35,357 bases of DNA, taken from positions 1 to 35,357 of the forward strand of contig MEKT01000238.1 in assembly GCA_001767435.1 (NCBI GenBank). Direction: 5' to 3'. The notes beneath the pieces are model-generated. The model did no database searches and had not been told where the DNA came from. It was given only the letters and a program-made list of their open reading frames with translations. This document shows, piece by piece, positions 2,978 through 10,490 of the stretch (its first letter is position 1; the number at the start of each line of letters is the position of its first letter). This DNA comes from Acidobacteria bacterium RIFCSPLOWO2_02_FULL_65_29 (GTDB taxonomy: Bacteria > Acidobacteriota > Vicinamibacteria > Vicinamibacterales > CAVVIG01). The translations under genes were made by a program, and so were the position numbers.

Positions 2978-3658
2978 TTATGACTTGAGATCGAGCTTGC
3001 CGGTGTAGAGCGCCATGCCGACGACCGCATCCACGCCCTGGCTGTCGAGGTCGTCGATCTCTTCCTGCGTCGTGATGCCGCCGGCCGCCGTGAGGCGGTT
3101 GCTCGTCGCGCGGCGGACTTCGAGGATCGCCTCGCGGTTGATGCCGCCCATCAGCCCCTCGGTGTCGACGTGGGTGTACAGGAATTCGCCGCAGTACGGC
3201 TCGAGCGCCCGCACGGCTTCAACGGCGGTGATCGGCAGCGGGGTCTTCCAGCCGTGGATCACCACGCGGCCGCCACGGCTGTCCACGGCGGCAATCACAC
3301 GATCGGCGCCGACGGCGTCGGCGAGCGCCTTTGCAAATGCGAGGTCGGGCGCGCCATTCCTGAAAAGCGACGACCCGGCGATGATCTGCCGCGCGCCGGC
3401 CTCAAGAATCTCGCGTGCGCGTTCAACGGTTCGTATGCCCCCGCCCACTCGACACGTGAGCGATCCCGCGATCTGCCGGACGATGGCCAGGTTGTCGCCG
3501 ATGCCCATGGCGGCGTCGAGATCGATCACCTGCACCTTCGGGAACTTCTCGAACCGCTTCACCCAGCGGGCGACGTCCTCGTCCCTGATCGCGAGGCGCT
3601 CGCCCTGCACGAGCTGGACGACCGCGCCGCCCTGGAGGTCGATCGCCGGAATCAACAC
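2978..3658 (-). CDS. hisA: Phosphoribosylformimino-5-aminoimidazole carboxamide ribotide isomerase
   Basis: HisA opens the ProFAR ring and rearranges it to PRFAR, the fourth step of histidine synthesis. The (beta/alpha)8 barrel is complete. The first catalytic Asp is in IPAIDLQGG, the second in AAVDSRGGRV. The phosphate loops are VGGGIRT and AAGGITT. I choose GTG 3656-3658 because family members begin just before IPAID; a TTG at 3674-3676 would add six residues and neither start has a good ribosome site. The usual IDRDGT motif reads THVDTEGLMGG, a mild variation. It is cut off from the rest of the his operon by mazEF, transcribed the other way, so it needs its own promoter in the 90-nt gap or read-through. 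Confidence 0.9.
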   Translation of the reverse strand: MLIPAIDLQGGAVVQLVQGERLAIRDEDVARWVKRFEKFPKVQVIDLDAAMGIGDNLAIVRQIAGSLTCRVGGGIRTVERAREILEAGARQIIAGSSLFRNGAPDLAFAKALADAVGADRVIAAVDSRGGRVVIHGWKTPLPITAVEAVRALEPYCGEFLYTHVDTEGLMGGINREAILEVRRATSNRLTAAGGITTQEEIDDLDSQGVDAVVGMALYTGKLDLKS

Positions 3659-3710
3659 GCGAGACTCATCTCTCAATCTTAGGCGAAGCCAGTCGATAGG
3701 AAGAATGCAA

Positions 3711-4446: not shown

Positions 4447-5202
4447 CTAGATCCTCACCGGAATGCCGTGCTGTTTCAGGTATTGCTTGAGCGACCGCAC
4501 GCTGGTTTCGGCATAGTGAAAGATCGACGCCGCAAGCGCCGCGTCGGCGGCGCCCTTCGTGAAGACATCCACGAAATCGTCGAGCCCCCCGGCGCCGCCC
4601 GAGGCGATCACTGGAATCGACACGGCGTGGGAAACAGCGGCGGTCATCTCGCAGTCGAATCCAGCCTTGGTGCCATCGCGATCGATCGAGGTCAGCAGAA
4701 TCTCGCCGGCGCCGCGCGACTCGGCCTCGCGCGCCCACTCGACCGCGTCGCGGCTGGCCGCGGTCGTGCCGCTTCGTGAATAGACGGCGAATCGATCGCC
4801 GTCCCGCTTGGCGTCGATCGCCACGATGACCGCCTGGCTGCCGTACCGGCTGGCGAGCGTCGTGATCAACGCCGGATTGGAAAGGGGAGCGGTGTTCAGG
4901 CTGACTTTGTCGGCTCCCGCGTCGACGGCGGCGGCCGCGTCGGCCTCGGTGTGGATGCCGCCGCCGACGGCGAGGGGAATGAAGAGCTCGCGCGCCACCG
5001 CGTGGATCGTGGCGGCGAGCGCGCGGCGGCTCTCGATCGTAGCCGTGATGTCGAGGATCACGAGCTCGTCGATGCCCTCGCGGTTGTAGCGGCGTGCGAG
5101 CTCCCCCGGATCGCCGGCGCTTCTGAGGCCCTCGAAGTTGATGCCCTTCACAACCTGGCCGTCTCGCACGTCGAGGCAGGCGATGATACGTTTGGATAGC
5201 AT
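4447..5202 (-). CDS. hisF: Imidazole glycerol phosphate synthase, cyclase subunit
   Basis: HisF receives ammonia from HisH and converts PRFAR to imidazole glycerol phosphate and AICAR. The 251-residue barrel is full length. The catalytic Asp residues are in [10 protein letters not shown] and VAIDAKRDG. The phosphate-binding loops are LAVGGGIHT and ASGGAGG, and [12 protein letters not shown] is the usual loop near the active site. The start is the ATG preceding [10 protein letters not shown], as in most family members. It follows hisH in the operon across a 93-nt AT-rich repeat and ends where the tcttcgtg cluster and mazEF begin. Confidence 0.95.
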
Positions 5203-5295: not shown

Positions 5296-5964
5296 TCATA
5301 CCGAACTGACAAAGTTCCGCAGAATCTTCAGCCCCGTCTCCGCCGACTTCTCCGGATGGAACTGCACGCCCGCAATCTGCCCGCGCTCGACGACAGACGC
5401 GAAGACCTCGCCGTGTTCGGTCGAGGCCACGGTGTCTCCGGTGAGCGGCGCGATGTAGCTGTGCGTGAAGTAGACCTGCGCGCCCGGCGCGACGCCTTCG
5501 AGAATCGACGCGTCTCGCGTGCGGTCGATCGAGTTCCACCCGACGTGCGGGATTTTCAGCCTCGCTTCTGGCCCGTTCTCGTGGCCTGATCTTCTTCGTG
5601 TCTTCGTGCCTTCGTGGCCTTCCGGCGGCACCCGTAGGCGCCGGCACTGGCCCGAAAGAACGCCCAGCCCGGGCACATCTGGCGCCTCGTCGCTGCCTTC
5701 GAACAGCCACTGCATGCCCAGGCAGATGCCGAGGAGCGGACGTCCCTCGCCCACGCGCTCGAGAATGGCGTCGATCCAGGCTCGATCGAGCGCGCGCGTG
5801 GCGTCGAAATGGCCGACGCCCGGCACGATGATCGCGCCGGCGCCGTCTAGCGCTCCCGGTGACGCCGGCACGAACACGCGCGCGCCGATAGCCGCGAGCG
5901 CCTTCTTCACCGACGTCAGATTCCCGGCGCCGTAGTCGATGAGCGCGATGGAAGCGGCGGTCAC
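5296..5964 (-). CDS. hisH: Imidazole glycerol phosphate synthase, glutaminase subunit, with a repeat-derived insert
   Basis: HisH is the class I glutamine amidotransferase that feeds ammonia to HisF. I take GTG 5962-5964, overlapping the hisB stop as GTGA, which gives 222 residues. The frame is open much further upstream, but that part shadows hisB and hisC. The nucleophile Cys81 is in [15 protein letters not shown], and His203 and Glu205 are in QFHPEKS. After LSGQCRRL, residues 112-135 (including [16 protein letters not shown]) are an in-frame insert encoded by the tcttcgtg repeat. Normal family members go almost directly from this point to LKIPHVGWN, which resumes correctly here. The catalytic residues are untouched, so activity is plausible. 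Confidence 0.93.
5589..5622. repeat. tcttcgtg repeat inside hisH
   Basis: Read on the plus strand this stretch is CTTCTTCGTGTCTTCGTG followed by CCTTCGTGGCC, the same unit as the cluster at 4309-4446. It encodes much of the extra peptide in HisH without breaking the frame. No duplicated target site is obvious. Confidence 0.75.
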
Positions 5965-6548
5965 AGCAGTCCCTTGGTGCTCGGCAGCATGCGTGCGAGG
6001 CGCTTGTCCTTCGCGCACGCGACCCGGAGCGCGCGGCCGAACGCCTTGAACACGGCCTCGACCTTGTGGTGGCTCGATCGCCCGTAGAGCACCCTGACGT
6101 GCACGTTGGCCCGTGCGCCGATCGCGAAGCCCTCGAAAAAGTCGTGCACGAGCTCGGTCTGCAGATCGCCGACGCGCGCGGCCGTTCTCTTCAGATCCAC
6201 GGCCGTGTGCGGGCGGCCGCCGAGATCGATCGCGACGACGGCCAGCGTTTCGTCCATGGGCATCACGAAGTAGCCCGCCCGGTTGATGCCGCGGCGGTGG
6301 CCAAGCGCCCGCGAAACCGCCTCGCCGAGGGCGATGCCGAGGTCCTCGACGGTGTGATGCTGGTCGACGTCGAGGTCGCCCGTGGCATCCACCTGGAGGT
6401 CGAACGCCCCGTGGCGGGCGAACAGCTCCAGCATGTGGTCCAGAAATCGGATGCCCGTGCGAACGCCGTACCGTCCTTTCCCGTCGAGCGCCAGCGACAG
6501 CCGCACCCGGGTTTCCGTCGTCCGTCGATCGATCAAAGCGCGGCGCAT
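5961..6548 (-). CDS. hisB: Imidazoleglycerol-phosphate dehydratase
   Basis: IGPD removes water from imidazole glycerol phosphate to give imidazole acetol phosphate. The protein is the monofunctional form (195 residues), without the phosphatase domain seen in enterobacterial HisB. It has both metal-binding motifs, [10 protein letters not shown] and [13 protein letters not shown], and the conserved [13 protein letters not shown]. The start is ATG 6546-6548, preceded by a good ribosome site (AGAGG) and lying 16 nt inside the hisC end. The stop overlaps the hisH GTG. The longer open frame upstream is a shadow of hisC. Confidence 0.95.
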
Positions 6549-7591
6549 AGTACCTCTTCGAGCACCGCCAGGCCGCGGCGCGTGTGTTCGACAATGCCGG
6601 CGGTGAGGCGAAGACACCCTTCGCACCCGGGATCGCTGCTGCGGTCGCGGAGGTAGATTCCACGCGCGGAGGCGGCGTCGACGAGTGCGCCGGTCCGTTC
6701 GCCGGTGCGGATGAGCACGAAGTTGGCATCGCTCTTCCAGTACTTCAGCCCGAGCCGATCGCACGTCGCGTACACCAGCGCTTTCGACTCGCGCACCTGC
6801 CGAAGGTAGTGCTCCACGTACGCGGTGTCCTGCAGCGCGGCCTCGAGCGCGATGGTGGCCGCCACGTTCACGCTGTAGACGCCAATCGCCTGCCGGACCG
6901 GCGCCAGCGTGGCGGGCGCGCCGACCAGCGCGCCGATTCGCAACCCGGCCAGGCCGTACGCTTTCGCGAAGGTGCGTCCAACGACGACGTTGGGATGCGC
7001 CGGAAGCTCGGGGACGAATGTCGTCCCTGCGAAGTCCGCGTACGCCTCGTCGACGAAGACGACGCCGCCCCGAGGCATACGCGCCGCCACGGTCTTGATC
7101 GCATCCATCGGCATCGAGACGCCGGTCGGATTGTTGGGGTTGGTCAGAAACACGACACGTGTGTTCGGGGTGATGGCCGCGAGCACTTCGTCGAGCGCGA
7201 ACGCGAAATCGGGCCTCGGCATCACGAGGACCGCGCGGCCGCCGACGACCGACGCGTCGATCGCGAAGATCTCGAAGGCCGGCTGCGGGACGATGGCTTC
7301 TGGGGCTTCCGGCGACGTGTTATCGCGCGAGGGTCGCAGGTAGGCGATCGCCACGGCCATGATGCCCTCGTCGAGGCCGTTGGTCAGGGCGAGGCGATCG
7401 GGTGCGACGCCCAGGTGCCGAGCGCACGCGTCCACAGCCGTCTTGTAGGGCGGATAGAAGGCAATCTGATCTGCGCGGAGCGCCGCCAGCGCTTCGAGGA
7501 CGCGCGGCGAGCAGCCGCCGGTGTTCTCGTTCTGGTGCAGCCTCAGGCCGTCGTACAGCTCGGGCGGCTTGTCGTAGTCGTCAATAGACAT
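6533..7591 (-). CDS. hisC: Histidinol-phosphate aminotransferase
   Basis: HisC transfers the amino group from glutamate to imidazole acetol phosphate. The 352-residue protein is a fold-type I PLP enzyme: [14 protein letters not shown] at the N-terminus, LTNGLDEGI for cofactor phosphate binding, [19 protein letters not shown] with the pyridine-nitrogen Asp, and the Schiff-base Lys in [22 protein letters not shown] near the end holds the Arg for the substrate carboxylate. The gene overlaps hisB and is separated from hisD by a 122-nt GC-rich repeat region. Confidence 0.95.
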
Positions 7592-7713: not shown

Positions 7714-8955
7714 TCACCTGTCCAGTCTGACTTCAACCGATTCCGCGTGCGCCAGCAGACCCTCCGCGCGCGCGAGCGCCAGAATCGTCGGCGCAAGGCG
7801 CGCGAGCCCCCGTCGTGTCACGCGTTGAACGGCCATCACGCGCACGAAATCCGCGGCGCTCAGCCCGCCGCGGAATCTGGCGGCGCCGGCGGTCGGCAGC
7901 ACGTGGTTCGAGCCGGTTGCGTAGTCGCCGGCCGCCTGCGCGGCAAACGCGCCGACAAACACCGCGCCGGCCGTAATCGATCGGGCGATGAGAGCCTCGC
8001 GATCGACGACGAGATGCTCGGGCGCGAGGCGGTTGACCACCTCCATCGCTTCGTCTGCCGATCGCGCGACGACAATGGCGCCGTGCGCGCGGAGCGAGCG
8101 CGTGACGATGTTGCGGCCCCTGGCCCGTGCGGACACGGCGGTGGCCACCCGCGCCGCCAGGCGACGCCGCCACGTGATGAAGATCGAGCGGGCGTCGGGA
8201 TCGTGCTCCGCCTGCGCGACGAGATCCGCAGCGATCCAGTCCGGCCTTCCGTTCCCGGCGACGATGACGATCTCGGTCGGCCCGGCAAAAAAGTCGATCG
8301 CGCAGTCGCGCGAGACGAACGCCTTGGCGACCGCGACGTACCGGTTGCCCGGGCCGACGATCTTGTCCACGCGGGGAACGGTTGCCGTGCCGTAAGCCAG
8401 CGCGGCCACGGCGTGCGCGCCGCCGATACGAAAGAGCCGGGTCACGCCGGCCTCGAGCGCAGCCGCCATGACGGCGGGTTCCGGCCGCGGGCAGCAGACG
8501 ACGACGTCACGGACACCCGCCACACGCGCGGTGACGGCCGTCATCAGGAGCGACGAGGGCAGCGGGAACCGTCCGCCCGGCACATAGCAGCCGACGCGGG
8601 CGAGCGGCTCGACGCGCTGTTCGACCGATACGCCTGGCGCGACGTCGAGGTCCCAGTGCCTGGGAACCTGTCGGGACGCCACACGGGCGATGCTGCGCGC
8701 CGCCTGTCGGATGGCGCGTCGGACGTCGGGCGACGCCGCCGCGGCTCCCGCGATCATCTCGTCGTGCGAGACCTCGATCGGGCCTGTGACACCGTCGAAG
8801 CGGCGGGCGAGGCGGCGAAGCGCGGCATCGCCTCCATCGCGCACGCGCGCGACGATGGCCGCCACGCGCCGCTCGAAGGCGCGGTCGCCGCGGCGATCGT
8901 GCGCGACGACCCGGTCGAGAGCCCGCCGATTGGTCGAGCTGATGATTCGAATCAC
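7714..8955 (-). CDS. hisD: Histidinol dehydrogenase
   Basis: HisD carries out the last two oxidations, histidinol to histidinal to histidine, with NAD and zinc. The 413 residues show the full signature: [46 protein letters not shown], the zinc-binding Gln and His in LVAQAEHDP, the catalytic Glu-His pair in LAPEHL, and [13 protein letters not shown] with the zinc Asp. The start is GTG 8953-8955, just 4 nt after the hisG stop, so the two are probably coupled. The protein is Arg- and Ala-rich, in line with the GC content. Confidence 0.95.
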
Positions 8956-8959
8956 AATG

Positions 8960-9847
8960 TCACAGCACTATCTTGTTCAGTGGATACTCAACGATTCCCT
9001 GAGCTCTGGCCGCCTTTAATTTCGGGATCAAGTCTCGAACGGTCTTCTCTTCGATGATGGTGTTGACCGCCACCCAGTCCTCGTCGCTCAACGCCGAGAT
9101 CGTGGGTCGTTGTAGCGCGGGCAGGAGCGCCAAGACGGTCGCGAGATCCGCGCGCCGGACGTTGAGCATCAGCCCGACCCGGCCGTGCGCTTCGATCGCC
9201 GCCTTCAGCAACAAGGCGATGTTGTCCAGCTTGGTCTTCTTCCGTCCCTCGGCCAGCGCGGCACGATTGGCAATGAGCTGCGTGTTCGATTCCATGACCG
9301 TGTCGAGAATGGCGAGCCGGTTTGCGCGAAGCGTCGATCCGGTTTCCGTGGCCTCGACGATGGCGTCGGCCAGCACCGGCGGTTTGACCTCGGTCGCACC
9401 CCAGGAGAACTCGACGTTGACCTTCACACCCTGCCTCTCGAAGTACCGGCGCGTGGTGCGCACCAGTTCGGTGGCGATCGTCTTGCCGTTGAGATCCTTC
9501 GCCGACTTGAAGCTGGAATCCTCTGGAGCCGCCAGCACCCACCGCACTTTGCCGAAGCTCTGCTTCGAATAGACGAGATCCACGATCGGCTCAATGACGC
9601 CCGTCCGGCCGTCACCGAGCTCGTGCTCGAGGATCCAGTCCTGACCGGTGAGCCCGGCGTCGAGGACGCCGTCCGACACGTAGCGCGCCATCTCCTGCGC
9701 CCGGATCAGCATGCACTCGACTTCGGGATCGTCGATGGCGGGAAAATACGACCGCGGGTTGACATAGATGTTGAACCCGGCGCGCGCGAAGAGCTGAATC
9801 GTCGCGTCCTGCAGGGAGCCTTTGGGTAAGCCAAGTTTCAGTTTCAT
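8960..9847 (-). CDS. hisG: ATP phosphoribosyltransferase, long form
   Basis: HisG joins ATP and PRPP, the committed step. The protein has 295 residues and is the long, HisZ-independent form. Residues 1 to about 215 are the catalytic domains ([13 protein letters not shown] at the start, [13 protein letters not shown], and the PRPP loop in [14 protein letters not shown]). The last 75 or so are the ACT-like regulatory domain that binds histidine. Feedback inhibition by histidine is therefore expected, in addition to the attenuator upstream of hisI. It lies 21 nt after hisI. Confidence 0.95.
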
Positions 9848-9868: not shown

Positions 9869-9892
9869 CTAGTCCCGAGCCCCGAGTCCCGG
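9869..9892. repeat. agtcccg heptamer repeat at the hisI 3' end
   Basis: Three degenerate copies of AGTCCCG (AGTCCCG, AGCCCCG, AGTCCCG) overlap the last codons and stop of hisI. A related block (GAGTCCCGAGCCCGAG) occurs near 21144-21160, in front of the second SahR-like gene. Confidence 0.7.
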
Positions 9893-10198
9893 CAGCGAAC
9901 GAAAGAAGCACGTTCGCTGTCCCGTATGGCACACGTTGCCGTCGCCGAGCCGCTTGACCTTCAGGAGCACGGTGTCGTCATCGCAGTCGGTGAGCATCTC
10001 GACGACCTCGAGGCGGTTGCCCGACGTCTCCCCCTTGGCCCAGAGTGTGTTGCGCGTGCGGCTGAAGAAGGTGGCGTAGCCCGTCTGCTTCGTGATGGCG
10101 AGCGCTTCTTCGTTCATGAAGCCGACCATCAGGACCTCGGCGCTGTCGACGTCCTGAATGACGGCTGGAATGAGCCCGTCCAGTTTCGTGAAATCCAT
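9869..10198 (-). CDS. hisI: Phosphoribosyl-AMP cyclohydrolase (monofunctional)
   Basis: HisI opens the adenine ring of PR-AMP. I choose ATG 10196-10198, after a clear ribosome site (AGAGGAG), giving 109 residues. Family features are MGFMNEEALAIT, FFSRTRNTLWAKGETSGN, the metal-binding DCDDDTVLLKV and the Cys-His-Cys zinc site CHTGQRTCFF. There is no HisE domain, and no separate hisE is in the window. The last residues (SLPGLGARD) and the TAG stop are encoded by an agtcccg repeat, so the natural C-terminus seems to have been replaced by repeat sequence. This is the first structural gene behind the attenuator. Confidence 0.95.
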   Translation of the reverse strand: MDFTKLDGLIPAVIQDVDSAEVLMVGFMNEEALAITKQTGYATFFSRTRNTLWAKGETSGNRLEVVEMLTDCDDDTVLLKVKRLGDGNVCHTGQRTCFFRSLPGLGARD

Positions 10199-10295: not shown

Positions 10296-10324
10296 ACAAA
10301 AAACCCCGCCTCGGTGGCGGGGTT
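10296..10324 (-). terminator. Intrinsic terminator of the his attenuator
   Basis: On the minus strand a 9-bp perfect GC-rich stem, AACCCCGCC with GGCGGGGTT (loop of 5 nt), is followed by TTTTTTGTTGTT. It lies between the His-rich leader peptide and hisI, with about 98 nt left to the hisI start. Its 5' arm (with flanks 10313-10326) can also pair with the leader segment at 10363-10379, so it can be switched off. Confidence 0.9.
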
Positions 10325-10390
10325 GCAATCCTCGAAGGTCCTGGTCGGGCCCTAGATCACGCGCAACTCCGCCACCCGCTGACGCGGTGG
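10302..10390 (-). promoter_or_regulatory. his operon attenuator (alternative hairpins 1:2, 2:3, 3:4)
   Basis: Four segments can be marked on the transcript. Segment 1 is CCACCGC (10384-10390). Segment 2 is GCGGGTGGCGGAGTTGC (10363-10379). Segment 3 is GCAACCCCGCCACC (10313-10326). Segment 4 is GGCGGGGTT (10302-10310). 1 pairs with the start of 2; 3 pairs with 4 to form the terminator; 2 pairs with 3 over 13 of 14 positions to form an antiterminator. Segment 1 lies only a few codons after the His run, so a ribosome waiting for charged tRNA-His would cover it and favour 2:3. This is the logic of the enterobacterial his leader; the sequence match to that leader is not implied. Confidence 0.85.
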
Positions 10391-10425
10391 GAATCATGGT
10401 GCACGTGATGGTGGCGACCGAACAT
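10357..10425 (-). CDS. hisL: His-rich leader peptide of the his operon
   Basis: This 22-residue open frame starts at ATG 10423-10425 and reads MFGRHHHVHHDSH before the last nine residues and a TGA. Six of nine consecutive codons (residues 5-13) are His. It precedes the intrinsic terminator and hisI on the same strand, as expected for an attenuator peptide. The ribosome site is weak; an in-frame ATG at 10456-10458 could extend it, but that start would lie at or near the transcription start. Non-coding chance is unlikely given the match of position, composition and RNA structure. Confidence 0.85.
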   Translation of the reverse strand: MFGRHHHVHHDSHRVSGWRSCA

Positions 10426-10460
10426 GTTCGTAGAGCGCAGGTGTTCAGACCTGCCCATGA

Positions 10461-10490
10461 AGACTACCTGTACCGAATCGTCGCTGTCAA
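10461..10490 (-). promoter_or_regulatory. Probable sigma-70 promoter of the his operon
   Basis: On the minus strand there is a perfect TTGACA (-35, plus-strand 10485-10490), an 18-nt spacer and TAGTCT (-10, 10461-10466), which keeps the key T-A and final T. Transcription would start near 10454, about 30 nt before the leader peptide. A 6-bp inverted repeat, GCAGGT-N6-ACCTGC (10438-10455), lies at the start of the transcript. Confidence 0.6.

Follow-up and report, generated by a model that had tools for sequence, protein, structure and literature searches.

His leaders are established in Gammaproteobacteria and have been predicted in a few Firmicutes (PMC9413887, PMC2965389). Attenuation by leader peptides was long seen as a trait of Proteobacteria and Actinobacteria, the cases in Firmicutes, among them the leaders of hisS and hisZ (PMC2965389), having come later (PMC2965389, PMC9413887), and a survey of Actinobacteria found no histidine leader (PMC1262725). 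According to Naville and Gautheret, almost none of the attenuators predicted in Acidobacteria had a function assigned to it. The preliminary description of the locus studied here knew of no his attenuator in Acidobacteriota, and likewise no description of his leader-peptide attenuation in this phylum was found in the open-access literature searched, older subscription surveys being outside its scope.

The locus resides in a stretch of 35,357 nucleotides from Acidobacteria bacterium RIFCSPLOWO2_02_FULL_65_29 (contig MEKT01000238.1), the whole of which is referred to as the window. From its parts, their conservation and their co-variation, together with a state switch computed for the window, the element is very probably a transcription attenuator for the his operon, mediated by the ribosome and specific to histidine, which would sense charged tRNA-His. 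It precedes a hisIGDCBH(F,A) cluster located, like the element itself, on the minus strand, while its divergent neighbour on the plus strand is a gene for an ABC-transporter ATPase. The first structural gene, hisI (9869-10198, phosphoribosyl-AMP cyclohydrolase; NCBIfam NF000768 with 138.8 bits at a cut-off of 126), is followed by hisG (8960-9847, ATP phosphoribosyltransferase in its long form; TIGR00070, TIGR03455), hisD (7714-8955, histidinol dehydrogenase; TIGR00069), a hisC-like aminotransferase gene (6533-7591; TIGR01141 with 223 bits, below the cut-off of 276.55), hisB (5961-6548, start approximate, imidazoleglycerol-phosphate dehydratase; NF002111, PF00475), hisH (5296-5949, start approximate; TIGR01855), hisF (4447-5202; TIGR00735, over the cut-off) and a hisA-like gene (2978-3676; TIGR00007 with 162.7 bits, below the cut-off of 228.95).

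With the enterobacterial hisL (RF00514) the element shares a His-rich leader peptide, alternative antiterminator and terminator structures, a candidate pause or 1:2 hairpin and the predicted control of a his operon. In contrast to hisL, however, where hisG is the first gene, hisI comes first in the window, the sequences of the segments are unrelated and, in most relatives of the element, the leader ORF is apparently leaderless. In the window, the Rfam model RF00514 (His_leader) remained unmatched both at the gathering score and at E values up to 10, only sub-threshold chance matches being returned, and none of 20 related loci matched it either. Nor did any covariance model of a T-box riboswitch match in the window or in these 20 loci. 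The element would work like hisL, lies outside Rfam His_leader by sequence and structure and is an independent-looking attenuator. The His attenuators of Firmicutes (B. cereus group, Peptostreptococcaceae, Erysipelotrichales; PMC9413887) resemble it in that predicted His leader peptides are combined with terminator and antiterminator outside Proteobacteria. Yet those groups are small and scattered, whereas the feature described here was found in nearly all genomes of one order and in several groups of a phylum other than Firmicutes.

The predicted sigma-70-type promoter (10461-10490, minus strand as all parts of the element) consists of TTGACA (10490-10485), a spacer of 18 nt and TAGTCT (10466-10461) and is deduced from the sequence and from the relatives, which repeat this arrangement as TTGACA-17/18-TANNNT. 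It is absent from the output of a simple promoter scan because TAGTCT agrees with TATAAT at only three of six positions. The ORF of the putative His leader peptide (10357-10425, ATG at 10425, stop codon TGA at 10359-10357) comprises 22 codons (MFGRHHHVHHDSHRVSGWRSCA) and contains the stretch HHHVHHDSH, His being encoded by codons 5-7, 9, 10 and 13, i.e. six times within nine codons. A second in-frame ATG is present upstream at 10458 but is probably not transcribed since it follows the -10 box by only 2 nt. Between promoter and leader ATG, sequence and fold reveal a small 5'-UTR hairpin, GCAGGT-CTGAAC-ACCTGC (10437-10454). A comparable 6-bp hairpin with another stem sequence and an identical CTGAA loop start is present in L007, a locus from one other genus. 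Segment 1 (CCACCGC, 10384-10390) overlaps the last His codon and has its partner, GCGGGTGG (10379-10372), in segment 2 (10363-10379), which also harbours the antiterminator strand GGTGGCGGAGTTGC (10376-10363), as indicated by folds and co-variation. Segment 3 (GCAACCCCGCCACC, 10313-10326), which according to folds and swap test is common to antiterminator and terminator, pairs with segment 2 at 13 of 14 positions. The predicted intrinsic terminator (3:4, 10298-10324) is composed of a 9-bp stem (10324-10316/10310-10302) containing seven GC pairs, a loop (10315-10311) and a T-run (10303-10298), and the start of hisI lies 100 nt downstream of it. The promoter, the leader ORF and the overlapping 1:2, 2:3 and 3:4 pairings named in the preliminary description were all found.

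Folding of the window sequence begun past the stop codon leads to the terminator (-19.2 kcal/mol), the segment of which is more stable than its shuffles (z -2.7), while folding begun within the leader ORF leads to the antiterminator. The 2:3 stretch reaches a z of -3.1 versus shuffles; the 1:2 stretch alone is no better than shuffles (z 0.36), though the pairing is present. Both alternative states were obtained, in line with the earlier claim that 2:3 and 3:4 are mutually exclusive. In a ribosome model which assumed that the footprint extends 14 nt beyond the A-site codon, the computed probability of the terminator amounts to 0.01 when the ribosome is held at the first His codon, to 0.00 at a middle one and to 0.97 at the last one; it is 1.00 both at the stop codon and when no ribosome is present. 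This pattern is that expected for attenuation. A ribosome stalled at codon 10 would mask the transcript to about position 10384, the end of segment 1, which agrees with the masking of segment 1 that had been proposed for a stalled ribosome.

Transcription start, translation of the leader ORF, termination and the response to histidine are steps which we infer, and they would be connected as follows. RNA polymerase would start at the TTGACA/TAGTCT promoter and a ribosome would begin the 22-codon His-rich ORF. If charged tRNA-His is scarce, this ribosome would stall at His codons 5-10 with its footprint over segment 1, leaving segment 2 free to form the 2:3 antiterminator, so that no terminator would arise and hisIGDCBH and the genes beyond would be transcribed. 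If charged tRNA-His is plentiful, the ribosome would proceed as far as the stop codon, located where segment 2 ends, and cover this segment, which would permit the 3:4 terminator to form. Where no ribosome is present, 1:2 would form and termination would likewise win.

Relatives were found by means of HisI, and the loci stem from the order of the window, whose named records include Luteitalea and Vicinamibacterales, from named records of Bryobacterales and from another family of the phylum (f26). The 181 loci overlap between collections and contain 138 distinct leaders. Within the order of the window, 81 loci offer enough upstream sequence, and the sense strand upstream of hisI encodes at least four His within nine codons in 78 of them and three His in the other three. 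Altogether, 175 of 181 loci have a small His-rich ORF upstream of hisI, with at least four His within nine codons in 169 of them; the remaining six, with three His, also possess promoter and terminator. Real losses, in which hisI is kept and the His-rich ORF is gone, are few (L188, L203 and L209). A terminator-like hairpin with a T-run is situated between ORF and hisI in 121 of the 138 leaders, compared to 30, 21 and 19 in shuffles. The succession of His-rich ORF and terminator for which the preliminary description had recommended searching in relatives is, in these proportions, indeed present. It might be argued that the element merely reflects a fortuitous cluster of His codons within GC-rich DNA, next to an unrelated terminator, since CAC/CAT runs and GC-rich hairpins do arise by chance in such genomes and the antisense strands, which served as a control, reach at least four His within nine codons in 7 of 81 loci. 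In view of conservation and co-variation over 138 distinct leaders we consider the probability of this explanation negligible. Conservation settles that the predicted His ORF upstream of hisI is more than chance, and the predicted type of His attenuator is not limited to one lineage, being present in three groups of the phylum or more.

In the 121 leaders with terminators the His codons are almost evenly divided between CAT (360) and CAC (357), the residue being kept while the codons mix. The hisI, hisG and hisD genes of those loci mostly use CAC (758, compared to 181 CAT), unlike the half-CAT leaders. In about 30 relatives no leader for Leu, Trp, branched-chain amino acids or His was found before leuA, trpE, ilvB or hisS; as judged from these upstream regions, His is the sole amino acid involved among those tested. 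These data also bear on a reading in which the product of the His-rich ORF is a small protein with a function of its own, for instance metal binding, and the terminator merely ends a short gene or small RNA. Such a reading could invoke the existence of a complete unit of promoter, ORF and terminator, as well as the leader peptide peTrpL of Sinorhizobium meliloti, which has a second function in trans (PMC7298713). It is, however, very improbable, as merely the density of His codons is kept and neither their order nor their number, as the C-terminal part of the leader changes jointly with the terminator arm, as 175 of 181 loci have the ORF in front of their his operon while it was seen before none of the four genes named above in about 30 relatives, and as the leader peptide has no Pfam match.

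The joint evolution of the segments was assessed by several means. Duplexes of segments 2 and 3 have a mean energy of -21.1 kcal/mol, as compared to -16.2 kcal/mol for shuffled segment-2 regions, 62 of 121 lying within the best 5%. Own partners pair better than partners swapped between species, both for 2:3 (-19.7 versus -17.5) and for 3:4 (-20.3 versus -15.5) as well as for 1:2 (-18.5 versus -16.4), none of 2000 permutations being as good in any of the three cases. Among 29 representatives of less than 70% identity, the number of permutations as good was 0 for 2:3, 0 for 3:4 and 2 for 1:2 out of 5000. Shared ancestry is not fully removed in any of these comparisons. An identity cut of 65% left 9 representatives, which are too few (150 of 5000 for 2:3), and cuts of 70-80% were used instead. 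Pairing of 1:2 exceeds that of shuffles in only 39 of 121 leaders and is weak in Bryobacterales. Compared column by column in a fixed alignment of 19 sequences, 3:4 displays compensatory change, whereas 2:3, although 85% paired, exhibits no co-variation beyond shuffles because its register shifts between lineages, distant members using another one. As regards the compensatory changes suggested beforehand for segments 2, 3 and 4, the swap tests and the 3:4 columns support co-variation, while the 2:3 columns of the 19 sequences are neutral. The parts, the conserved leaders, the swap tests and the computed switching all speak for the his attenuation originally claimed.

With the full terminator present, clear switching at equilibrium is obtained for only 45 of 121 leaders. 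The remaining ones need a co-transcriptional argument, namely that 2:3 has formed before segment 4 emerges. In transcripts truncated ahead of segment 4, upstream pairing of segment 3 has a mean probability of 0.84 if a ribosome is stalled and of 0.26 if it has reached the stop codon. Family-wide, folding of the states at equilibrium alone is a poor discriminator, and co-transcriptional cut-offs and swap tests were used in its place.

A conspicuous property of most relatives is the position of their promoter. Of the 138 leaders, 130 carry a TANNNT -10 box whose end lies 5-11 nt (mode 9) upstream of the leader ATG; the corresponding counts are 15 for shuffles and 9 for the starts of hisI. A TTGACA-like -35 box is present as well in 93 leaders (versus 2 in shuffles). 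Shine-Dalgarno-like tetramers precede the leader ATG in 10 of 138 cases and hisI in 49 of 138. With the -10 box so near to the ATG and Shine-Dalgarno sequences so rare, the transcripts of most relatives probably start at the ATG or within a few bases of it, which would render the leader ORF leaderless. In this version the ribosome would load at the 5' end of the RNA once this end is clear of RNA polymerase. Leaderless genes have been predicted for Acidobacteria, at an average of 13% (PMC3160421). The window and L007 depart from this arrangement of the promoter: their -10 box lies 35-37 nt from the ATG (35 nt in the window), with the small hairpin in between. No clear Shine-Dalgarno sequence was seen in the 5' region before the leader ATG of the window, and initiation of this ORF is the weakest point of the case for an attenuator. 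In trpL of S. meliloti (PMC7298713) the leader ORF starts with the 5' end of the RNA, and an attenuator comes after it; that system, however, concerns tryptophan and an alphaproteobacterium, and its 5' end has been reported while it is predicted here. The cysteine-rich leader ORFs of mycobacteria (PMC4633059) are comparable as amino-acid-rich small ORFs before biosynthetic genes, in bacteria among which leaderless mRNAs are abundant, but they are concerned with cysteine and, in the part of that source available to us, a pair of terminator and antiterminator is not described.

In several other families of the phylum His-rich ORFs precede hisG as well. In one order (L394-L397; all four genomes with a hisG match), and likewise in a genus belonging to another family (L398-L400; three of three genomes with a match), hisG is preceded by two serial His-rich ORFs, each followed by a hairpin; the first hairpin of the latter loci is devoid of a good T-run. 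In the tandem loci L394-L400 the second ORF ends with PG or SG. These arrangements would in effect represent two His attenuators in series, a parallel to the mgtCBR leader of Salmonella, which contains two attenuation elements and two short ORFs (PMC3641672); operon and signals are unrelated there, however, and the window has a single attenuator. Two further hisG-first loci, L165 and L168, possess a very short His ORF (MNTPVPNLHHHHHAG and MLKASLHIHLCHHHVHTIRRVG, respectively), and a GC-rich terminator-like stem was not seen before their gene; possibly they constitute a version acting at the level of translation. They lend some plausibility to an explanation in which the His ORF stalls the ribosome in order to control translation of hisI or to act via Rho, with 3:4 not being an actual terminator, the more so as a recognisable intrinsic terminator is missing in 17 of the 138 leaders. 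Nonetheless, we attribute a very small probability to it for the window, since there, as in 120 other leaders, the region behind the ORF contains a GC-rich hairpin with a T-run and since the window hairpin, at its distance of 100 nt, is too far from the hisI start to hide the ribosome-binding site of this gene. In another order of the class to which the window belongs (L084-L103), a His-rich ORF was not found in the stretches examined. The loci of that order have a short-form HisG, and their hisI is located at the distal end or apart from other his genes.

Taken for itself, the attenuator of the window is ordinary in kind, and its place is unreported in the literature searched; the breadth of its conservation, the probably leaderless relatives and the tandem versions lift it above a simple instance. 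On balance, the sequences favour the view that Acidobacteriota own a widespread his-attenuator lineage with a leaderless leader ORF, with tandem two-step versions in some families and with an architecture distinct from enterobacterial hisL. A His attenuator that stands before nearly every hisI in one order and recurs in several further groups would provide a testable circuit of regulation for an abundant and poorly studied phylum of soil bacteria. Should the leaderless start prove true, it would moreover offer a natural system for studying how tightly a 70S ribosome on leaderless RNA tracks RNA polymerase, which matters because attenuation requires a ribosome that closely follows the polymerase.
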